NCBI GenBank assembly: GCA_001799285.1
Contig: MGTD01000018.1
Span: 1 to 64,000 of the forward strand
Direction of reading: 5' to 3'
Length of the DNA stretch: 64,000 bases
Origin: Deltaproteobacteria bacterium RIFOXYD12_FULL_56_24
GTDB taxonomy: Bacteria; Desulfobacterota; Desulfobulbia; Desulfobulbales; Desulfurivibrionaceae
Below the pieces are notes generated by a model, which ran no database searches, was not told the DNA's origin, and saw nothing but the letters and a program-made list of their open reading frames with translations. Both the position numbers and the translations under genes were made by a program. Position 1 is the stretch's first letter. Each line of letters begins with the position of its first letter. Shown in pieces: positions 23,996-61,058 of this stretch.

Positions 23996-24184
23996 CAGCG
24001 GAATCCATCCATTTATGGTTACGGGTTACGTTTAGGACATAGTAGCTGAGGCTTGCCGTGCGGTCAAGAAAAGGGCAGTCAACAATCGTGCTTGATCAAA
24101 AAATCGCGAACCATTTCGTTCATGATCACGATTTTTGGCTTGCCTGTTTCATGGATAATGATCCAGACGCAGCGTTGAAAAGCC

Positions 24185-24335
24185 GTAATCTTTCACCAGG
24201 AACAAAAAACGTGGCTAAACCACTGGACTGTAAACGTTCAGCAGTGCCGCAGATGCGCGAAAGAGGTCTGCGAAGTGTGCTGGTGCACATGAGCAGGCCG
24301 ATGACAAAGCAGATGCGGTGCTGCTGAACATTTAC
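24185..24335 (+). mobile_element. MITE-like element copy 1
   Basis: GTAATCTTTCACC...TGTAAACGTTCAGCAGTGCCGCAGATG...GATGCGGTGCTGCTGAACATTTAC; flanked by GAAAAGCC / GAAATGCC (8 bp, one mismatch). Confidence 0.75.
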
Positions 24336-24428
24336 GAAATGCCCGGAAAAGATCGCTGTCCACCTGGAGGATTAAGCGTTCGCCTTCTCCGGCATTGTCG
24401 ACGAATTGGTGCTGGTCGCTGACCTGAC

Positions 24429-26154: not shown

Positions 26155-26308
26155 GTAAGCGATCACAGGGCACCACATCTTGCAGCGATCGGTCCGGCTC
26201 ACGTACAAAAGTACGCATCGCCGTCCCGCTTGCCGCAACCTGCGGCACCCTGTGACCGCTTATTTCGTGGTTATTTGACTTCCGGGGCACTCCCCCCGTG
26301 ATCGGTTA
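26155..26308 (-). mobile_element. MITE-like element copy 2
   Basis: 154 bp, exact 8-bp duplication ATTAAATC at 26147-26154 and 26309-26316. Confidence 0.85.
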
Positions 26309-28429: not shown

Positions 28430-28883
28430 GGTAAATCTTCCACTCCATTCATGCAGTTGCGCGGTTATACCTGGTGCCGGTCAAGGCACCATACCTTGGA
28501 AAACCGGCATTAATAACGTCCCCTGGTCCAGGGGCCGGATGGACAGTCTTTTACAGAACCGGCACTTTTACCCTTAAGGCCTGTTGCTGTCAAGGGAAAA
28601 ATTCGGCGCATTCGCACGCAGTTACTAGCGGTGATAAGGAAGAAATTCCGGGTAATGGAACGGAAGAAGAGTAAGCAGATTAAATCAGGATCAAGAGATC
28701 CGGTTTTGAGATCATAGTCGCGGGACAAACATGAATTATTATGTGGCAAAGAGTTGCCGGTAATGATAAATATCTTTGCTGTATTGTCAGGAACACAGAG
28801 TCGACCACCCCACTGTCTTTGATATTTAACGGAAGTCAATGTTCTTTCATTAGAGTTGAGGGGCCATCTTGTTGCGACTCAAC

Positions 28884-29037
28884 GTAACCGTTCACTGGGC
28901 GGTCACCAAAGTACCAAAACCGCCGGGCTGTAACCGTTCAGCAGTGCCGCAGATTTGGACAAGCGGCCCGGTGCTGCGTACCTCGTGTACGTAAGCCGGG
29001 CCGATCGTCCGAAGATGTGGTGCTGCTGAACGGTTAC
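28884..29037 (+). mobile_element. MITE-like element copy 3
   Basis: 154 bp GTAACCGTTCACTGG...CTGCTGAACGGTTAC; 8-bp duplication GACTCAAC at 28876-28883 and 29038-29045. Confidence 0.88.
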
Positions 29038-29050
29038 GACTCAACTGACC

Positions 29051-35593: not shown

Positions 35594-35595
35594 GC

Positions 35596-35830
35596 GTAAG
35601 CGTTCACCAGGGGCACCCAAATTTCAGATAAACACGGAACTGTAAGCGTTCAGCAGTGCCGCAGATGCGCGTGTCAATTGTCGGCAGAAGTGTCCGACCA
35701 AGAGGCCTGTTCGCTATCCCAGCGAAGCTGGATAAAAGCCCCTAAGCCCGATGCTCGGGCAGGGGCTCTATACATACGGTATGCGGACCAGGCCGATGAC
35801 AAAGCAGATGTGGTGCTGCTGAACGCTTAC
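35596..35830 (+). mobile_element. MITE-like element copy 4, enlarged (235 bp)
   Basis: GTAAGCGTTCACC...TGTAAGCGTTCAGCAG...CTGCTGAACGCTTAC; 8-bp duplication GAGTAGGC at 35588-35595 and 35831-35838. Confidence 0.85.
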
Positions 35831-35849
35831 GAGTAGGCGGGGGTACTTA

Positions 35850-36368: not shown

Positions 36369-36424
36369 AAAACAACCTGCTCATTTCGTATGACCAAAAC
36401 GGCACAAGGAGCCGTAAAGGAACG

Positions 36425-36577
36425 ATAATTATCCAGCTCAATGCCGGGAATGAACAAAAACAACCCAAACCGTAACTATCCAGCAGTGCCGTAGCTGCTA
36501 GGCAGAAGCCTGCGAAGTGTGCTGGCGCCCATAAGCAGGCTGATAACAACGCAGATGCGGTGCTGCTGGATAGGTAC
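36425..36577 (+). mobile_element. MITE-like element copy 5
   Basis: 153 bp; ...CGTAACTATCCAGCAGTGCCGTAG...GGTGCTGCTGGATAGGTAC; duplication AAGGAACG at 36417-36424 and 36578-36585. Confidence 0.85.
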
Positions 36578-36985
36578 AAGGAACGATTAATAATTTTGTC
36601 CAAGTTATTTTGTAACGGCTCCGGGCAACGGGCTTTTACCCTGCTGGAGATCATGGTCGCCTTGGCCATTATCAGCATTGCTCTGGTCGCGCTGTTGAGT
36701 CTGGGCAATCGCTCCATTGCGGTACACAGCCGCCTGCAGCATCTGACCCAGGCGACCTTGCTGGCCCAGCAGAAGATGGCGGAGAGCGAACTTAAAGCCC
36801 GCAGCGGCGGCGTGGCGCAATTGAACGAGAGTACCGGGACTTTTGCCGAGCCGTTTGCCGACTACCAATGGCGAATCACTATCAGCAGCACGCCCCTGCC
36901 GGCGGTGCAGATGGTTACGGTGACGGTACTCTGGGGCAAAGAGGAGCGTAATGAGCTTGTCGAAATCACCTCGTTCCTGTTTTGA
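36560..36985 (+). CDS. gspI: Minor pseudopilin GspI (true start probably downstream of the ORF start)
   Basis: QRAFTLLEIMVALAIISIALVALLSLGNRS; the ORF N-terminus runs into the MITE. Confidence 0.85.
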   Translation: MLLDRYKERLIILSKLFCNGSGQRAFTLLEIMVALAIISIALVALLSLGNRSIAVHSRLQHLTQATLLAQQKMAESELKARSGGVAQLNESTGTFAEPFADYQWRITISSTPLPAVQMVTVTVLWGKEERNELVEITSFLF

Positions 36986-37613: not shown

Positions 37614-38623
37614 ACGGATTCGTAGCTGATCACAGGACAGGCGACGATGTTCGGCCTTTCCCCGGATTCAAGACCAACAGGGGAATGGCACTGCTGGTGG
37701 TCCTGGCCATTGTCGCTCTGCTGACCTCGTTACTGACCGAGCTGGCATTTTCCACCCTGGTCGATCTGCGCCTGACCGAAACCTTTCGCGATACCACCCG
37801 GGCCTATTATCTGGCAAGGGGAGGCATCACCGCCGGGCGCATGATCCTCCAGGATGATCGCAACCACTATGACGGCTTGGAAGAACTCTGGAGCCAGGGG
37901 GTCATCAATTACCCGGTCCATGACGGCTTCATCACTGTGCGCATTATCGACCAGGACGGCAAATTGGGGATAAACGCCTTGGTCAGCGGGAATACGCCGG
38001 ACACTTTGATGGTCGATCGCTTCTATCGACTGTTTGTGGCTCTGGAACTCGACGATCTCGCCGACCCGGCCGAGTTGACCGCCAACCTGATCGATTGGCT
38101 GGACAGCGGCAACTCCCCTTACACGCAGATTCTCACCGGTGGTCTTGCCATCCCGGTCTCCGGTGCCGAAGACGCTTATTACCAGGGGCTGTCGCCACCT
38201 TATCCGGTCAAGAACGGCCGTCTGGATACCTTGGACGAACTGTCGTTGATCAAGGGTTTTACCCCGGAAGTCCTGCGCCGGATTTTACCGCATGTCGGCC
38301 TGCATGACCTTCCGGCGGTTAATATCAACACCGCCAGCGGGGCCGTACTCAAAGCCCTTGATCCTCTGGTGGATGAGGCAGTTGCTGCAACCCTGATCGC
38401 TTATCGCCAGGAAACGCCGATTGAGGAGTTGGCACAGCTTGACGGGGTTATTCCTCCCGGAGCCTACAGTGCTATTAAATCCCTCGGCAACCTTGAGCAG
38501 TTGGGCTTGCGGAGTAGACGCTACCGGATTGAGGCTGAAGCTGAGGTTAATGACGGACGGCGACGTCTGCAAGCCGAAGTGGACAAACAGGGAAACAGAT
38601 TGTTATTACTAAAGGTAAACTGA
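37610..38623 (+). CDS. gspK: Minor pseudopilin GspK
   Basis: RGMALLVVLAIVALLTSLLTELAFS; 337 aa; typical GspK. Confidence 0.9.
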   Translation: MNGFVADHRTGDDVRPFPGFKTNRGMALLVVLAIVALLTSLLTELAFSTLVDLRLTETFRDTTRAYYLARGGITAGRMILQDDRNHYDGLEELWSQGVINYPVHDGFITVRIIDQDGKLGINALVSGNTPDTLMVDRFYRLFVALELDDLADPAELTANLIDWLDSGNSPYTQILTGGLAIPVSGAEDAYYQGLSPPYPVKNGRLDTLDELSLIKGFTPEVLRRILPHVGLHDLPAVNINTASGAVLKALDPLVDEAVAATLIAYRQETPIEELAQLDGVIPPGAYSAIKSLGNLEQLGLRSRRYRIEAEAEVNDGRRRLQAEVDKQGNRLLLLKVN

Positions 38624-38772
38624 CTATCCAGCTCAAGGCCGGAAACGAGCATAAACAACCCAAACCGTAACTATCCAGCAGTGCTGTAGCTGCTAGGCAG
38701 AAGCCTGCGACGTGTGCTGGTGCCCATGAACAGGCTGATAACAACGCAGATGCGGTGCTGCTGGATAGTTAC
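38620..38772 (+). mobile_element. MITE-like element copy 6
   Basis: 153 bp; duplication AAGGTAAA at 38612-38619 and 38773-38780 (identity continues as AAGGTAAACTGACT). Confidence 0.85.
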
Positions 38773-38789
38773 AAGGTAAACTGACTGCT

Positions 38790-44032: not shown

Positions 44033-44186
44033 GTAACCGATCAAGGGGCAACCCCCAAAGGTCAAATAACCACGGAACAAGCGGTCACAGGGTGCCGCAG
44101 GTTGCGGCAAGCGGGACGGCGATGCGTACTTTTGTACGTGAGCCGGACCGATCGCCGCAAGATGTGGTGCCCTGTGATCGCTTAAA
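44033..44186 (+). mobile_element. MITE-like element copy 7
   Basis: GTAACCGATCAAGG...CAAGCGGTCACAGGGTGCCGCAG...GTGGTGCCCTGTGATCGCTTA; flanks are T-rich AAGTTTTTTTTG / AAGTTTTTTTG. Confidence 0.8.
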
Positions 44187-47017: not shown

Positions 47018-47071
47018 GTAACCAATCGCGGGGTAAGCCCACAAAGGTTAAATAACCTCGAAACAAGCGGC
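47018..47071 (+). repeat. Truncated left half of a MITE-like element
   Basis: GTAACCAATCGCGGGGTAAGCCCACAAAGGTTAAATAACCTCGAAACAAGCGG aligns with the left arm of copy 7. Confidence 0.7.
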
Positions 47072-48385: not shown

Positions 48386-48401
48386 ACAGGCTGTTAGATT
48401 T

Positions 48402-48458
48402 AAAGCTGAGTTGAGCAGCTTGCCTGCTCAAACGAAACTTATACCCCTTGGGTGCAAG
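48402..48458. repeat. Dispersed ~57-bp repeat, copy A
   Basis: AAAGCTGAGTTGAGCAGCTTGCCTGCTCAAACGAAACTTATACCCCTTGGGTGCAAG; hairpin TTGAGCAG...CTGCTCAA. Confidence 0.8.
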
Positions 48459-52916: not shown

Positions 52917-53918
52917 TCAGCGCTTTCCTCCCATCCGCCACATGCTCACTCGGTTTTTAAGCTGTTCCACGATATAAAAGCGGGAGCCCGCCGAGGTCAT
53001 GTTGGTTGGCGTTACAAATCTGATTTTTTCGCCCGAAGTGCGCTGCATGATGCCTTGGAAAGCGCCGGAGGCATCAAAGACCTGAACGGCGCCGGTGTAG
53101 CTGTCGGATACATAAACAGTGTTCCTGATCAGCATGACCCCCTTTGGCCGGAAGAGCTTGCCTGGGGTAATGCCCCATCCTCCCAGCATCTGGAGAGGCT
53201 CTCCGGTCGAGGAAAATGCCTTGACCAGATTATTAATAACATCCACCACATAGACGACGCCATTGTCGTCAATCGCCACCGTTGCCGGATGCCTGAATTC
53301 GTTGTTGTTCTCCCCGAAATTGCCGAACCACCGCAGCCTGCGGCCGCTTCGGTCGTAAACATGGATGTGGTGATTGCCATTATCGACCAGGAATATCTCA
53401 CCCTTTGCCGAGACGGCGCAGTCGGTAATCCTCGGTTTTTCATTATTCCCGACCGGGCTGGCGGTAAATTCTCCGCTGGCACCCCCATCAGGGGAAAATA
53501 TCTTGACCTTGGCGGTTTCCGCATCGGCAACATAAATCGCTCCCCGCTGGTCGGCGCAAAGGCCTATGGCTCTATGGAAGTCTCCGCCAAACTGGAAAAG
53601 GTATTTCCCCGCGAGGTCGAAAACCGCCACCCGGTGATTGAGGCCGTCAAGCACATAGAGCCTGCCGTTCGCACTGACGAGGTCGGTGGGCTGGTTGAAG
53701 GGGATCCCCTGAGCGCCGGTTATCTCCCCGCTAAACTCCACGCCAGCCGACCCGGTGGCGGCCGCCGTGAAAGGCAGAAGGGAAAAGAGCAGCAAGAGAA
53801 TAACCAGCATGCTCATGCTCCCCTTCCCGGTCATCGGCCGTGTCATAGGCTGCTCCCTCCCGCCCCAGTCATTACTGCACCACCCGGAGCCAGGGGCGGG
53901 CTTCCTGCTTTTTGTCAA
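52917..53918 (-). CDS. NHL-repeat protein
   Basis: Repeated PTDLVSANGRLYVLDGLNHRVAVFD-type repeats. Confidence 0.85.
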   Translation of the reverse strand: MTKSRKPAPGSGWCSNDWGGREQPMTRPMTGKGSMSMLVILLLLFSLLPFTAAATGSAGVEFSGEITGAQGIPFNQPTDLVSANGRLYVLDGLNHRVAVFDLAGKYLFQFGGDFHRAIGLCADQRGAIYVADAETAKVKIFSPDGGASGEFTASPVGNNEKPRITDCAVSAKGEIFLVDNGNHHIHVYDRSGRRLRWFGNFGENNNEFRHPATVAIDDNGVVYVVDVINNLVKAFSSTGEPLQMLGGWGITPGKLFRPKGVMLIRNTVYVSDSYTGAVQVFDASGAFQGIMQRTSGEKIRFVTPTNMTSAGSRFYIVEQLKNRVSMWRMGGKR

Positions 53919-55644
53919 CGGGCTCCTCGCCTACCGGTTTAAAGAGGTGCGGAAGATAGAATTTTTCATATTTTTCGAGCATGCCCACTACGGCGGTGCC
54001 CTTTAGTTCGCCGATCTGTGCCGCGGTATAGCCAAGCTTTTCGAAAGGCAGGTACGACTCCTGCTGGTTATGGCAATCCCTGCATTTTGCCGGCAATTTG
54101 GACATATTTTTGTGAATGACCCTTTGCGCCTGAGTTTTTTGCAGGGGAGAGAGGGTTCTTTCCTTCTGCAAATACTCCGCGACCATCTGGATCGACTCGT
54201 CCGAGTCTATCCGACCGAATTTTCCGGTTTCGACGGTGAAGGGAATGATCTTGAAATTCACTTTCTCTGCGGGTGGAAGCCGGCCGATGGGCTGGTCAAC
54301 GATCATCCCGCCCTTTTTGGCGTACCACTTGAAGGTCTGGGGCCGTTGCGGGGAATTTTCCCCATTGGGACGTTTGGCATGGCAGACCTCGCAGGAGAAG
54401 AAGGAGGCGTGCATATTCAAGAAAGCCCGGACCTCCTTCATCTTCTCGTGCGGCAGGTCACCGTGGCACTTGATGCAGGCCGACCGCTTGTCCGGGATGA
54501 CGTCGAGGCCGATATGGTGGAAATGGCCCTTGATTTTTTGCTCCTCCAGAATTCGGTAGCCAAGGAAATGCTTGTTGGTCTCGGTGCTTTCAAGCAGCCG
54601 CTTCTCGAAGAGCTCGGTCTGCGAGCTTGCCGCTTTTTTTGCCTCATGCCGGCCCGCAGGCGGGAAGAAACCGTGGACGCTGAAAATGGTCAGCTTCAGG
54701 ATCACCACGGAAATGGTGGCAAGCAGGACCATGACCGTCAGGCTGTATGCGACCTTGATGATCTTTTTCAACATGGGATCGCGGTGATGGCTTTCGTAAA
54801 AGGGCATGATCTCGTCGGCGAGGCCCTCTTCGGTCATGGTCTTGACGTATTCGGCGTAGTGCTCCTCGACCATCTCGTGTTCGGAGAGATAGCCGGTGAG
54901 AAAGACCTTCCCCATCGGGAATTTGTGAAGGTGGAGATGGGTATTGTAGAGATGGATGATGATCAGGAAGGTGGCCGCCAGCAGCGCCTCGTCGCTGTGG
55001 GCGATGATCGCCAGGTTGAAGGCGATCCCCGGCATGATGTGGGACAAAAGCTCCCTTTTCCAGAGGAGGAGGCCGGAGAGGCCCAGGAGCGGAATACCCC
55101 AGAAGACTGCGAAGAAGTCGAATTTCTCCTTCCACATGAACTTGGCGTACTCGGGTTTCTTGTCGGAGATGAAGAACAGGTACTTGATGTACTGGACGAT
55201 ATCCTGGCCGTCCTTGAGGTTCGGGACCATGGGCAGGGCGGCGAAGGCCAGCAGGCCGGCCTTCGGGGTCAAATTCCCGGCCTTTTTCAGGGGAAGCAGA
55301 TGTTCTTGGTAGTAGACGTAAAGAAAATAGTAGATGTAGATGAGAAAAAGCAGGCACATCGTTACCCCGGCCCAGCGATGGATCTTCGGGATCATGTCCG
55401 CCCCGCCGATCATTGCATAGAAGGCGCCAAGATTGGGGATCTCGGCGAACTTGAGGGGGACCCCGGTGGCGATCAGGGTAAGCACACTGGAAAAGAGGAT
55501 GAAATGCATGATCCTCTGGGCCAGGGTAAAGCGGTAGAAGTACTTAATGCCGTCCTTGATATAGATCGGCGAACGGTAGAGGAACATCTTCTTTGAGAAG
55601 CGCTGCTCCGGTGGCAGAATATCTTTATATAGGTTACTTCCCAT
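53872..55644 (-). CDS. Cytochrome b-type membrane protein with C-terminal triheme c region
   Basis: IKYFYRFTLAQRIMHFILFSSVLTLIATGVPLKF, multiple TM; CIKCH, CEVCH, CRDCH. Confidence 0.85.
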   Translation of the reverse strand: MGSNLYKDILPPEQRFSKKMFLYRSPIYIKDGIKYFYRFTLAQRIMHFILFSSVLTLIATGVPLKFAEIPNLGAFYAMIGGADMIPKIHRWAGVTMCLLFLIYIYYFLYVYYQEHLLPLKKAGNLTPKAGLLAFAALPMVPNLKDGQDIVQYIKYLFFISDKKPEYAKFMWKEKFDFFAVFWGIPLLGLSGLLLWKRELLSHIMPGIAFNLAIIAHSDEALLAATFLIIIHLYNTHLHLHKFPMGKVFLTGYLSEHEMVEEHYAEYVKTMTEEGLADEIMPFYESHHRDPMLKKIIKVAYSLTVMVLLATISVVILKLTIFSVHGFFPPAGRHEAKKAASSQTELFEKRLLESTETNKHFLGYRILEEQKIKGHFHHIGLDVIPDKRSACIKCHGDLPHEKMKEVRAFLNMHASFFSCEVCHAKRPNGENSPQRPQTFKWYAKKGGMIVDQPIGRLPPAEKVNFKIIPFTVETGKFGRIDSDESIQMVAEYLQKERTLSPLQKTQAQRVIHKNMSKLPAKCRDCHNQQESYLPFEKLGYTAAQIGELKGTAVVGMLEKYEKFYLPHLFKPVGEEPVDKKQEARPWLRVVQ

Positions 55645-56740
55645 CGTCGTTCCTCCTCTCTTTACGCAGAGCCGCATCCGGGAAAAGGAACCGCACCTGT
55701 TCGAGGAAGAGCAGCCCGAAGAAGATGAGGAGGGTAGCGGCCGTCAAAATGATGAAAAACCAGATCACGTACTTCTCGATGATGCTCTCCTGGTCGTGGG
55801 GATCGAGATGTACCTTGAAGTTCGCGAGATTTTCCGCGGCCTTGGGATGGCAGTCGGTCTGGCTGCACGTCTTGAAGCGATTGGCCTTGTGGATGGAGGA
55901 TTGCGGGTCATGCTGGGAAAGAATCGTGTGGGTCGATTTCCCCTCCCTGACATGGCAATCGGTGCAGTCGGGCAGCCTCTCGCTGCCGGTGGAGACCCCC
56001 TTGCCGTGGAAGGTTTCCTTGTAGGTGAAGACCGCATTCTTCAGCTTGTGCCGCTTGATCAGCCCCTGGTCCTCATGGCAGCTCCCGCAAACCTGGATAA
56101 CTTCTTCAGGCGCCCGGCTCTTGTTGAGCCTGCCGCTCACATGCATGTAAAAGGTCTTGATGAATTCATCCTTCTCGTGGCAGGCCCGGCATTTGCCGAC
56201 GGCCCGCTCGGAAAGACCCGGTCGCACCAGCTTGTAAAAGGCCAGCGGCCGGTAGAGCGGGTTTTCATGACAGCTCTTGCAGGTCGGCAGATCCTCGGGA
56301 TGCACGGTCGGTTTGCCATCCCAGCCGATTTTGCCGTGGACGCTTTTATCAAGAATATCCTGGATGGGCTTGTGGCTGAATTTCTTGGAGGTTGAAGGCT
56401 CCTGCACATGGCATTCCTTGGTGCAGTTGACGCCCCCCTCCTTGATTTCGTGAGGAATCTTCTCAAGACCCTCATGGCAATCCCCGCATTTGACCCTGCC
56501 GTGGGAGCCGACCTTCTCCATCTCCTCGTTGACGAAAAGGAGCCTCAGCTTTCCGTCGTCGTCCACTCTGGCCAGACCGGGATACCGGTGGCACATGAGG
56601 CAGTTCTCCTCGTCAGCCGCAAACAAGGCCGCGGGACAAGCGATCAACAGAGCAATGAGCAGTACCCCTCCACTAAAGCCAAGTTGAGCAGCTTGTCTGC
56701 TCAAACGAAACTTATGCCCCTTGGGTGAAAACCATTTCAT
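55634..56740 (-). CDS. Membrane-anchored multiheme cytochrome c (6 CXXCH plus CX3CH and CX4CH)
   Basis: CLMCH, CGDCH, CTKECH, CKSCH, CRACH, CGSCH, CTDCH, CSQTDCH; C-terminal TM. Confidence 0.88.
   Translation of the reverse strand: MKWFSPKGHKFRLSRQAAQLGFSGGVLLIALLIACPAALFAADEENCLMCHRYPGLARVDDDGKLRLLFVNEEMEKVGSHGRVKCGDCHEGLEKIPHEIKEGGVNCTKECHVQEPSTSKKFSHKPIQDILDKSVHGKIGWDGKPTVHPEDLPTCKSCHENPLYRPLAFYKLVRPGLSERAVGKCRACHEKDEFIKTFYMHVSGRLNKSRAPEEVIQVCGSCHEDQGLIKRHKLKNAVFTYKETFHGKGVSTGSERLPDCTDCHVREGKSTHTILSQHDPQSSIHKANRFKTCSQTDCHPKAAENLANFKVHLDPHDQESIIEKYVIWFFIILTAATLLIFFGLLFLEQVRFLFPDAALRKERRNDDGK
56675..56731. repeat. Dispersed ~57-bp repeat, copy B (within 5' coding region of the 55634-56740 gene)
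   Basis: AAAGCCAAGTTGAGCAGCTTGTCTGCTCAAACGAAACTTATGCCCCTTGGGTGAAAA; ~51 of 57 positions match copy A. Confidence 0.8.
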
Positions 56741-56817
56741 CACGGACCCCCTTTTCCTGATCTTTGGCCGACCCGGCAACCGACAGAGCCGACAGACGGA
56801 ATTATCATGGTTTGGCG

Positions 56818-56855
56818 GTAACTGTTCAGCAGATGCGGTGCGGCTGAACAGTTAC
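56818..56855. repeat. Solo MITE-end hairpin
   Basis: GTAACTGTTCAGC-agatgcggtgcg-GCTGAACAGTTAC, perfect 13-bp stem. Confidence 0.75.
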
Positions 56856-58049
56856 CTATTTCCCCCCGTTTTCGTGACACGCCTTGCAGAGTTTTCCATT
56901 CCGCGCCGAGAGGCGCATATTTTTTTGCGGTCTGGGTTTGGCCGCCATCTTCAGCGGCGCACCGTCGCGGATTTTCTGCATTTTGTAGCTGATTTCCTTT
57001 TCCAGCAGCGGCCCCATTCGCTGCCACCGTCTCTCCACCTCTGCCGGAACCTTCTCTTCATCGTATTTCGCGCCCGCCGGGTGATCCTTGGCAAAGACCC
57101 CATTTTCATGCGGGTTATGGCAGGTGGCGCAGGTAATTCTACCCTCTTCATCCAGGGGAAAAATGAGCCGGTAATTTTCTTCGGAGGCCTTCATGGTTTT
57201 GAGGGTTGCAGGCTTCGGCTTTTCAAGATGCTCAAAGGCGCCGGCATGGGGGGTGAGGAGATGACAGCCGATGCAGAGCAGCGACATCTTTCTCCTGAGC
57301 TGGTAATCGCCAGGGCTGATGGTTGCCTTAGGGTCCAGGGCTTTTGCATGACAGAAAAGGCAGCGGTTCTCCGCGGGCTTTCCGTCCCGGAGTTGTTGTT
57401 CGTGGGGGTTGTATCCCTTCTGTTCGGCCTGGTCATGGCATCGGTAACAGATGGCGAGCTTGTCCTCATATGGTCCGCCGCGCAGGAAATTATGGTGCTG
57501 CTTTTTGTCCTTCAGGCCGCAGGCAAGAGCATGGTCATGACAGGTGCGGCAGGCGGTTTTCTTTTCTGCCGACAGGGGAAACTCCGAAGGGATCTTGATC
57601 CTGGCCGAGGCAAGCAACCCCACCGGGTGCAGCTCCATCGAACCCTTGCCTTTTTCATGGCAGGCAAGACAGCCCGCATCCTCCTCGCCTCGCAGGAACA
57701 GGTTGTTTTTTTGCGGGGGCTGGGCGTGACAGGCGATACATTTCCCGCTCTGCCAGTGGGGATTGATCTTGAAATACTCCTTTCCGTAAAGAGTCTCCAG
57801 CTCATGTTCGGGTAAGCGATCACCGGGCACCACATCTTGCGGCGATCGGTCCGGCTCACGTACTAAAGTACGCATCGCCGTCCCGCTTGCCGCAACCTGC
57901 ACCACCCTGTGACCGCTTGTTCCGTGGTTATTTGACCTTTGTGGGTTTGCCACGTGATCGGTTACCTGTTCAGAGGCGGCCCAACTCAGCGCGGCCGTCG
58001 CGAGCAGGAGGACGACCGTGCTAAAACAGATTGTTTTTGAGTTGGCCAT
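56856..58049 (-). CDS. Eight-heme cytochrome c carrying an in-frame MITE-derived segment
   Basis: MANSKTICFSTVVLLLATAALSWAASEQ signal peptide then VTDHVANPQRSNNHGTSGHRVVQVAASGTAMRTLVREPDRSPQDVVPGDRLPEH; eight CXXCH. Start corrected from 58181. Confidence 0.8.
   Translation of the reverse strand: MANSKTICFSTVVLLLATAALSWAASEQVTDHVANPQRSNNHGTSGHRVVQVAASGTAMRTLVREPDRSPQDVVPGDRLPEHELETLYGKEYFKINPHWQSGKCIACHAQPPQKNNLFLRGEEDAGCLACHEKGKGSMELHPVGLLASARIKIPSEFPLSAEKKTACRTCHDHALACGLKDKKQHHNFLRGGPYEDKLAICYRCHDQAEQKGYNPHEQQLRDGKPAENRCLFCHAKALDPKATISPGDYQLRRKMSLLCIGCHLLTPHAGAFEHLEKPKPATLKTMKASEENYRLIFPLDEEGRITCATCHNPHENGVFAKDHPAGAKYDEEKVPAEVERRWQRMGPLLEKEISYKMQKIRDGAPLKMAAKPRPQKNMRLSARNGKLCKACHENGGK
57812..57965 (-). 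mobile_element. MITE-like element copy 8 (inside the cytochrome gene)
   Basis: 154 bp, nearly the same sequence as copy 2; flanks ATGTTCGG / CTGTTCAG (8 bp, two mismatches). Confidence 0.85.
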
Positions 58050-59130
58050 AACCGGCTCCGTGAAAATGGCAATCTGTGCAATCGCCAAAGGAAAATCCCT
58101 TATGAACGATTTCCTTGAGCCCATTCCCGGCATTGGCCGCGACGGCTTCATCCTCCGGGAAATTGGTGTGGCAGAGAGCACAGAGTTGAGTGAAGCGATA
58201 CTGGGTAACCGCTACCGTTGCCTGCTGCACGGTCTGCCGTTCATCCGGGTCGGTCAGCAGGGTGCTGGCGCTGGCGCCGGATTCGGTGATCAGGTAGGGA
58301 TTTCCTGAAGAATGCGGATAGTGGCAGGCCAGGCAGGGGAGAATCATATCGTTGCTATACCCTGCCCTGAATATGCCGAACTGTTGTACATCGCCGGGTT
58401 TTTCCCCATGAATATCAGCGGTCAACAATTTTTCGGCAGCCGTCGTGCCTATGCCGAAGAAAGTGCTTTTTATATCGGCAAACCCGTCGTCTATCAGCAG
58501 ATTGTCCAGGAAGGTCAGATTGTCGAAGATCAGCCGGGGCGGGACAATTCCCGCCGCACCGTTGGTGTCGTGGCAGGAGAGACAGAAATCGTTGACCTCG
58601 GCATAGGCTGGGCCGTCAAAGGCGGTGAGATCGACGGCAGGAGTGAAGGTTCCGTTCATGTCGCTTCGCTCGTGACAAATTATGCAGACCGCATCGTCCA
58701 GCGCGCCGCTGCCGGTCAGGTCATGGATATTGGCTTTTAAAAACATCGCCGCGTCAGCGAAGGTGCTTGGCGGAAAGATATCAGCCCGACCGTGACAGAT
58801 CAGGCATCTCTGCACCCCGCCTGCCTCGGGGGTCAGGCCGTTGGTGCCGTGGCAAGCCATGCAGGCGTCCTGCGCGTCGATTCCCAAGGTGTTCAGACTG
58901 TCCCGGATCTGGGGAACCCGCTGGTGATTAGCGGCGAGCCTTGCCATGGGGTGGCAGGCAAAACAGTCCACCCTTTCCCAGCCCTGTCCGCCGGCGTGCT
59001 GTAACGAGTTGGTAAAAATCGGCGCGGCGATCAATCCGGCCGGGGAGTCTCCGGCCCCCTCCGGGGAACTGCTTCCGCAGGCGGAGAGCGTCAGCAAAAG
59101 GGCAAGAGCCGACAGAAAGCTTTTGATCAT
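58021..59130 (-). CDS. Eight-heme lipoprotein cytochrome c
   Basis: Lipobox LSAC; eight CXXCH. Confidence 0.88.
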   Translation of the reverse strand: MIKSFLSALALLLTLSACGSSSPEGAGDSPAGLIAAPIFTNSLQHAGGQGWERVDCFACHPMARLAANHQRVPQIRDSLNTLGIDAQDACMACHGTNGLTPEAGGVQRCLICHGRADIFPPSTFADAAMFLKANIHDLTGSGALDDAVCIICHERSDMNGTFTPAVDLTAFDGPAYAEVNDFCLSCHDTNGAAGIVPPRLIFDNLTFLDNLLIDDGFADIKSTFFGIGTTAAEKLLTADIHGEKPGDVQQFGIFRAGYSNDMILPCLACHYPHSSGNPYLITESGASASTLLTDPDERQTVQQATVAVTQYRFTQLCALCHTNFPEDEAVAANAGNGLKEIVHKGFSFGDCTDCHFHGAGYGQLKNNLF

Positions 59131-59131
59131 T

Positions 59132-59725
59132 TTAATTGTATCTCCTTTGTTTTCCGCTGTGGCAATCGATGCAGAACCGTAAAGGATGGCAGGCCCCGCA
59201 AGACGCCGGATCGATCTGCGCCTCGACCGAATGGGAAAAACGATAAGTCCGTGGGTGCATCAACGTCTGGATGCTGTCCCTTCTTGTATGGCAATCCGCA
59301 CAGAACCATTCCCGGTGGCAGGTGTTGCAGGAGTCCCGGTCACTTTTTGCCTCCAGGCCATGAAATTTTTTCCATTCTTTGCGCAGGTGGGTTTCGGGCC
59401 TGATCGCATACATATCGAGATGGCACATGGCGCAGCTGCCTGGGGCGCCGCCGATCCGGGTAGCGGTTTCGACGTGGCAGTAATGGCAGATCGCTTTGCC
59501 CGGAAAAAGGGTGCGTTCCGAAGCGGCGAGGGCCTTCTTGAAGTCCCTATCCTCGATCTTCGAGAACCGGTGGCAGTCCAGGCACGCAAAGCCCTTCTGG
59601 TCGAGGGGCTTGGCGTGGATTTTGTGGGCGAAGGTACCGGACGGCGTCCGGTACTCATACCACTGGCACCCGGCAAAAAGTCCGAAAACGAGAATGAGCG
59701 CGAGTATGACGGCAGTCCTTTTCAT
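59132..59725 (-). CDS. Seven-heme lipoprotein cytochrome c
   Basis: MKRTAVILALILVFGLFAGC; seven CXXCH. Confidence 0.88.
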   Translation of the reverse strand: MKRTAVILALILVFGLFAGCQWYEYRTPSGTFAHKIHAKPLDQKGFACLDCHRFSKIEDRDFKKALAASERTLFPGKAICHYCHVETATRIGGAPGSCAMCHLDMYAIRPETHLRKEWKKFHGLEAKSDRDSCNTCHREWFCADCHTRRDSIQTLMHPRTYRFSHSVEAQIDPASCGACHPLRFCIDCHSGKQRRYN

Positions 59726-59729
59726 AACC

Positions 59730-61058
59730 CTACCTGCCCTCCCCTGCCGTGAGATTTCTCCCTGCGGGGAAGGAAAAATCGTAATCGAGCCGCATGCCGG
59801 TCCTGAAATCGCTCCTGAACTCAGGATTGTCGCTCTGCTCGACAAAAAGCGCTGCTTTGAGCGTAGGTTTCGGCCGGTAGCCAACTTCCCCGGTTATGGT
59901 GGTGGCGGTCTGGTCCTGGCGGGAAGGCGTGTTGATGGAGACCGCCTCCAGGCCTCCCTCCAGAATCCATTTGTTGTGGGGACGCCATCTGATCTTGGTT
60001 GAAATTCCGGTGGCGTCGGCGATAAAGCTTTCGAAGCGATAGATGCCGAGATCCAGGTCAAGGCCCATTTGCTCTATAAAATTTCCACTTACGCCGCCTT
60101 TCAGGATAGTGCCGGTTTGCCAGCCCCCGTCCGGCATCTTCAAGCGGGTAAAAACCGAGCTCTGGTAAATGGCCACGATCGGGTTGAGATCATAGAACAC
60201 GGTATAGAAGGTCCGCTCCTCTCTCCCGTCGGAGAGGATCGACAAGACCAGTTCCCTGCCCTCGGGAAATTCGTTCTTGACGTCGTACAGGTCTGCCTCA
60301 AGGAGTACTCTTAATTTTTTGTCGTAATAGGTGAATAGCCGCGCAGACATTTTATCCAGGTCAGCCCGGTCCAGGTTGTAATCGGCGCTGCCGTCAACCG
60401 AGATTTTCAGCTCTTTGCCAAGCAATATCGATTGAAAGTCCCTGCCCACCCCACCACTGAATAATTCTTGATATACCGTGTCTCCGGAGCCTTCCCAGGA
60501 ATAGCCGGCGTACGCCCTGGTTCTTTCGATCCCCTGGAGAAACAATCTGCCTCCGTAAATCGTCCCCTCGTTTGTGCTGAACAGCCTTTTGAATCTATCC
60601 GGGTCCAGGTCGAGATTTCTAGACGCCCCGCCAAACACCGCAACGCCTACCGGGCCGTCCGGTTTAAGGGAAACATTCATCCCGTCGACGGTAAGGAAGC
60701 GGTGGGTTGAGAGCGGGAATCTGCCGAGCTGGATGTCGGCCCTGCCTTCGTGGGTTCTGTACTCGAGGTAGCCGTAATAGAGAGAGGTGTCCGAGAAATT
60801 GGCGTCGAAGTCGTGGCCGAATTTCCCGTAGGCGTGCATCGATACTGCGGGGTGGAGAATTCGCTCGGCATCAAGGGACAGATAGTTATCCAGGACGGAC
60901 TCCCTGTCGCCGTCCTTGTTTTCCCTGCTCTGGAAGAGAGAGGAAAATTTCCCCGATACCTCGGCGCCGAAAAGAGGGCAGGCCTGGGCAAGCATGACCA
61001 GAACCGCAACAACCGTGATGGCCCAGGGGCCCGGGCGACGATGGACTAAAGGAGTCAT
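59730..61058 (-). CDS. Outer-membrane beta-barrel protein
   Basis: Signal peptide; FSSLFQSRENKDGDRESVLDNYLSLDAERILHPAVSMHAYGKFGHDFD, barrel-like strands. Confidence 0.75.
   Translation of the reverse strand: MTPLVHRRPGPWAITVVAVLVMLAQACPLFGAEVSGKFSSLFQSRENKDGDRESVLDNYLSLDAERILHPAVSMHAYGKFGHDFDANFSDTSLYYGYLEYRTHEGRADIQLGRFPLSTHRFLTVDGMNVSLKPDGPVGVAVFGGASRNLDLDPDRFKRLFSTNEGTIYGGRLFLQGIERTRAYAGYSWEGSGDTVYQELFSGGVGRDFQSILLGKELKISVDGSADYNLDRADLDKMSARLFTYYDKKLRVLLEADLYDVKNEFPEGRELVLSILSDGREERTFYTVFYDLNPIVAIYQSSVFTRLKMPDGGWQTGTILKGGVSGNFIEQMGLDLDLGIYRFESFIADATGISTKIRWRPHNKWILEGGLEAVSINTPSRQDQTATTITGEVGYRPKPTLKAALFVEQSDNPEFRSDFRTGMRLDYDFSFPAGRNLTAGEGR

Follow-up and report, generated by a model that had tools for sequence, protein, structure and literature searches.

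How does a copy of a mobile repeat come to lie in the reading frame of a cytochrome gene, and is it read through as protein? The question arises in the Desulfurivibrionaceae bacterium RIFOXYD12_FULL_56_24, in a stretch of 64,000 nucleotides (contig MGTD01000018.1, positions 1 to 64,000) that we call the window and to which coordinates refer unless another locus is named. In-frame palindromic elements are best known in Rickettsia, which is obligate intracellular and hard to manipulate, and their origin is unclear.

The inserted copy and its host gene

The host gene (56856–58049, minus strand) encodes an exported multiheme c-type cytochrome of 397 aa, including 54 extra residues. Its reading frame is unbroken from the ATG at 58049 to the stop at 56856 (397 codons), matches Pfam families Paired_CXXCH_1 and Cytochrome_C7 and keeps every CXXCH motif intact. 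Within it, a 154-bp MITE copy lies in frame at 57812–57965 on the minus strand, that is, in coding sense, and agrees with the family consensus at 147 of 154 bases. Its terminal inverted repeats are GTAACCGATCAC (57954–57965) and, at the other end, GTGATCGCTTAC (57812–57823), and it is flanked by an 8-bp target-site duplication whose upstream copy, CTGAACAG (57966–57973), codes ..EQ and whose downstream copy, CCGAACAT (57804–57811), codes PEH together with the last base of the element; all four features are given in coding sense, on the minus strand. The duplicates are now identical at 6 of 8 positions and this decay, together with the seven changes from consensus, indicates that the insertion is not brand new. 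One of the differences from the consensus peptide removes a cysteine (PCDRL to PGDRL), a loss that may or may not be relevant in a periplasmic cytochrome.

A preliminary description of the locus had given these coordinates, the length of 154 bp and a 54-residue peptide, all of which are right when the sequence is read directly, and its arithmetic is correct: element plus 8-bp duplication makes 162 nt, or 54 codons. It had also placed the segment between ..ALSWAASEQ and HELETLYGKEYF with the frame kept and no stop, as the continuous 397-aa ORF bears out; residues 29–79 are repeat-derived and follow the signal peptide, ahead of the first CXXCH. Its suggestion that orthologues be compared for a gap of about 54 residues is borne out by two syntenic orthologues from the same family (genomes G019 and G024), in which the neighbouring cytochrome and porin-like genes occur in the same order. 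In both, the signal peptide is joined straight to the mature protein and the alignment gap spans all element residues, and three more distant homologues likewise lack them. The cytochrome gene is absent from all congeners in our sample, and a search of the genome contig collection with query P0001 found no relative. The surrounding region (53872–61058) holds a cluster of multiheme cytochrome genes with a porin-like beta-barrel gene; its order is kept in G019 and G024, and it resembles an outer-membrane electron conduit.

The absence from congeners counts in favour of another reading, in which the cytochrome is a decaying pseudogene or begins downstream of the element and its length keeps the frame only by chance. 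So does the finding that, of 58 other copies, 43 have no stop in the cytochrome's frame; an open frame alone is therefore no proof of translation. Several observations argue against this explanation, which we consider quite unlikely: besides the intact heme-binding motifs, the 316 residues downstream of the element are 48% identical to the orthologues, the frame has stayed open despite the seven consensus changes and a duplication decayed by two of its eight positions, and the same capture has taken place in several conserved enzymes (below). A protein begun at a later start would moreover have no signal peptide. An alternative start after the element with a signal peptide of its own, which the preliminary description had named as a test, was looked for by inspection of the ORF; none of the in-frame starts, whether within the element or beyond it, leads into one, so export of the cytochrome needs the upstream start. 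The codon-usage score of the upstream flank, the signal-peptide region, is low, which is why our automatic in-gene criterion missed this gene, and it is thus from the signal peptide and the orthologues that we call the cytochrome copy in-gene.

A dispersed family with IS66-like ends

The element belongs to a family of about 130 copies in this genome (3,036,381 bp in 67 contigs). When up to three mismatches are allowed, a core pattern of 25 bases has 130 matches and the reversed control pattern none, and BLAST scored at least 40 matches of the element. About 100 copies were read with their flanks, 64 of them near full length, and some 30 weaker copies were left out. In the cytochrome's sense the family's ends are GTAACCGATCAC and GTGATCGCTTAC, which are 12-bp near-perfect inverted repeats. 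The duplication, as the preliminary description had it, is 8 bp long, and exactly so: across the 64 near-full copies mean flank identity is 0.90 at a length of 8, compared with 0.29–0.37 at lengths 5–7 and 9–11, and the duplication is perfect in 40 of them. Being short, bounded by terminal inverted repeats, free of a transposase, flanked by a duplication of fixed length and dispersed in many copies, the family has the characteristics of a MITE. The consensus folds as a long hairpin and is stop-free in only two of its six frames, frame 0 of each strand; since element and duplication make 162 nt, a copy whose insertion site has the right phase lengthens the protein by 54 residues with neither a frameshift nor a stop.

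The window contains two further full copies, at 26155–26308 (minus strand, classed intergenic) and 44033–44184 (plus strand, just upstream of a gene), and a truncated one consisting of the first 53 bases (47018–47070, plus strand). The cytochrome insert had been counted as 'copy 8'; it is a genuine repeat, but that numbering mixes related families and only three full copies of this one are present. Related palindromes with GTAACCGTTCAGCAG-type ends occur at 24183–24337, 28883–29039, 35595–35832, 36415–36581, 38610–38776 and 56816–56855 and are apparently sister families within the same IS66-like group. At the gathering score, Rfam matched only a tRNA in the whole window and left the element unmatched.

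Length variants also occur elsewhere in the family. Those of 208 nt carry an extra 54-nt cassette, are frame-neutral and have an open forward frame 0; the 180-nt and 234-nt variants do not keep the frame. The cassette is a second dispersed repeat, of about 54–57 nt, nested inside the MITE. Genome-wide, this second repeat has at least 40 scored matches; in the window it lies at 56674–56730 and 48401–48457, and the N-terminal residues SPKGHKFRLSRQAAQLGF of the adjacent cytochrome gene (55634–56779) are encoded by one copy.

In genomes of the same order, IS66 elements have GTAAGCG ends and, in three cases, perfect 8-bp duplications (ACTGCAAT, ATAGAGCA and ATTTTATT). The MITE matches these relatives' elements in having ends that begin with GTAA and a duplication of 8 bp, although the ends are alike only in their first bases and the MITE, unlike an IS66 insertion sequence, is without a transposase. 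We found no match to the IS66 transposase (PF03050, Pfam cut-off) in this genome, and neither here nor among the relatives' IS66 elements is there an autonomous partner with matching ends. Given the limited end similarity and the lack of IS66 here, we call the element IS66-like and not IS66-derived; an IS66 transposase may nevertheless be what mobilises it. Outside this genome, the element core matched three stretches only in the genome contig collection, all in MAGs of Desulfobulbales/Desulfobacterales.

Copies in other genes and their orientation

For each near-full copy we joined the flanks minus one duplication and sought a coding frame spanning the junction on either strand. By one automatic criterion, which misses the cytochrome copy, 4 of 63 copies lie in coding sequence, compared with 2034 of 3000 random sites (68%; binomial P about 1e-24). 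The remaining copies are intergenic or come no further into a gene than a few codons from its end; among the copies read with flanks none clearly disrupts a well-scored gene.

The four copies deep inside good genes are each 154 long, stop-free and in forward frame 0, and their hosts, all recognised by Pfam, are an S13 D-Ala-D-Ala carboxypeptidase (L105), an RNA uracil methyltransferase-like protein (L078), a DegT-type aminotransferase (L115) and a metallophosphoesterase (L092). Congeners match both sides of the four inserts at 68–93% identity without the 54 residues, and for the carboxypeptidase and the phosphoesterase their flanks are contiguous across the empty site. An orthologue of the methyltransferase (L210) has, at the MITE site, a unit of about 33 residues (KPSLQNNANNGDPENGIRSRKEWPKGTSYSATAP) repeated in tandem and in frame, which other congeners lack; a site so variable and repeat-rich fits a permissive loop. 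A Ppx/GppA phosphatase gene (L221), whose copy was fetched because its forward frame was open, is probably a fifth enzyme with an insert. Two AlphaFold models, built on shallow alignments, have pLDDT of 37 and 49 and are too poor for placing the insert; in the carboxypeptidase model confidence is lowest over the insert, which has no secondary structure there, a weak hint at a flexible segment.

Other copies lie at gene margins. We do not count as in-gene the copies before acuI-like, ferrochelatase, L,D-transpeptidase and lipoprotein genes, which likely start after the element. In mutS (L093:15290–15443) and an M23-peptidase gene (L091:2057–2210) the MITE lies a few codons past the apparent start, where it may extend the N-terminus or supply a start used within the element. 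Copies about 10 codons or fewer from the 3′ end of a gene (L120:10733, L084:1993, L123:1991 and L093:1994, among others) can provide a new stop, by the GTAA end or by the element.

Relatives provide further cases. Copies picked by DNA similarity lie in MurF of G019 (a 133-nt variant with a perfect duplication, 47 codons), in CbiE of G024 (a 109-nt variant with a perfect duplication, 39 codons) and in CbiD of both genomes. With such cases in other genomes, assembly error is an unlikely explanation overall. The isoleucyl-tRNA synthetase (IleRS) of G024 contains a more distantly related element; its ends differ, which makes it a member of a related family, not of the identical one. Two long open frames in relatives (L298 and L304) were considered as in-gene cases and left uncounted, being without Pfam support.

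The CbiD pair (L243 and L260, from two Desulfurivibrio-like genomes) shares its insertion site, and the inserts differ at 8 of 108 bases, far less than the flanks, whose synonymous sites have diverged by about 30%. The insertions may therefore be recent or independent of each other, or gene conversion may have acted. The dN/dS of the insert, based on only these 8 differences, is about 1.1, compared with 0.23–0.51 in the flanks; a value near 1 from so few changes agrees with a tolerated spacer.

The in-gene copies share one orientation. Counting only cases found without using the peptide, all eight independent ones are forward (five here, plus MurF, CbiD and CbiE; two-sided sign test about 0.008); relatives found with the forward peptide, a biased search, were excluded from this argument. 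Frame 0 is no less open in reverse than in forward sense (41 of 64 frame-neutral versus 38 of 58 other copies), and the forward peptide is the more hydrophilic (GRAVY −0.83 versus −0.30). That cases free of orientation bias in their discovery should all use one of two equally open frames, the one with the more hydrophilic peptide, is what positive selection of the element as a protein module would predict, a domestication beyond mere tolerance. We nevertheless regard domestication as very unlikely: the hosts are unrelated, congeners manage without the insert, the CbiD insert has, on its few changes, the dN/dS near unity given above in contrast to its flanks, and tolerance of a hydrophilic peptide accounts for the orientation equally well and is its simplest reason.

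Tolerance is also at the centre of the explanation that we favour with considerable confidence, in which an IS66-like MITE with an 8-bp duplication inserted past the signal peptide and frame-neutral copies are kept in tolerant linkers as translated spacers. A non-autonomous MITE would have entered the cytochrome gene just after its signal-peptide region, duplicating 8 bp. Insertion is probably random; selection would purge most copies that land in genes, and frame-neutral copies in a permissive loop or linker would persist. The hydrophilic insert would then be translated as an unstructured, flexible spacer and the host proteins would keep their function. As RNA, the cytochrome copy forms a very stable hairpin (about −75 kcal/mol) with short duplications at its ends, the kind of structure from which the element might be removed at the RNA or translation level, by a splicing-like process or by bypassing of the hairpin, to give a protein without it. 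We give this hardly any credence, since neutral length and an open frame would then be needless, yet only frame-neutral copies are seen in genes; the search for such a system covered Rfam, with only the tRNA matched in the window.

Relation to known in-frame repeats

The preliminary description had likened the insert to Rickettsia palindromic elements (RPEs), and the comparison is apt as an analogy, the phenomenon recurring in at least eight other proteins. RPEs are palindromic repeats of about 150 bp that occur in frame in genes unrelated to each other, where their translation, with a conserved peptide, is predicted, and a review of them considers a similar process conceivable in other prokaryotes (PMC10969869). 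The MITE shares with them its in-frame presence in unrelated genes and its absence from orthologues, a likeness that we claim for the phenomenon only. It differs from RPEs presumably in sequence, and in host (Desulfobulbales, not Rickettsia), in its clear 8-bp target-site duplication and IS66-like ends, and in its intragenic share, about 5–6 of about 70 copies as opposed to about half.

Small repeats forming in-frame fusions in ORFs of free-living bacteria include ERIC, Anabaena MITEs, Coxiella QMITE1 and GTAG/CGTC REPs (PMC10969869, PMC3733652). The present element is like these a small non-autonomous repeat that forms in-frame fusions in a free-living host, but it stands apart by its one recurring orientation and frame and by the matching gaps in congeners; the REPs of PMC3733652, moreover, are 20–40 bp, whereas this is a 154-bp MITE with an 8-bp duplication. 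Our literature search turned up no description of such elements in Desulfurivibrio. The element is thus a new family of a known kind of in-frame palindromic repeat, unusually well documented by empty sites.

The family may repeatedly give unrelated proteins, including essential ones (MurF and probably IleRS), the same frame-neutral hydrophilic peptide in one orientation, and it is conceivable, though we hold it only tentatively and lean against it, that it is maintained as protein-compatible. G019 matches the cultured species Desulfurivibrio alkaliphilus AHT2T (PMC5016858), and G024 we infer to be Desulfurivibrio dismutans AMeS2 (PMC12142623), for which a published proteome detected 75% of proteins (PMC12142623). 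Tryptic peptides of the filled proteins include GSSVPQVAASGPAPR for IleRS of G024 and VPQVVASGPAPR and SPQDAVPCDR for MurF of G019. In this family a Rickettsia-like outcome is accompanied by a clean signature of transposition, many congeners show the matching empty sites, and relatives such as Desulfurivibrio alkaliphilus are in culture; with these, and with a proteome for one of the cultured relatives, the translation, tolerance and neutrality of such inserts become directly testable.
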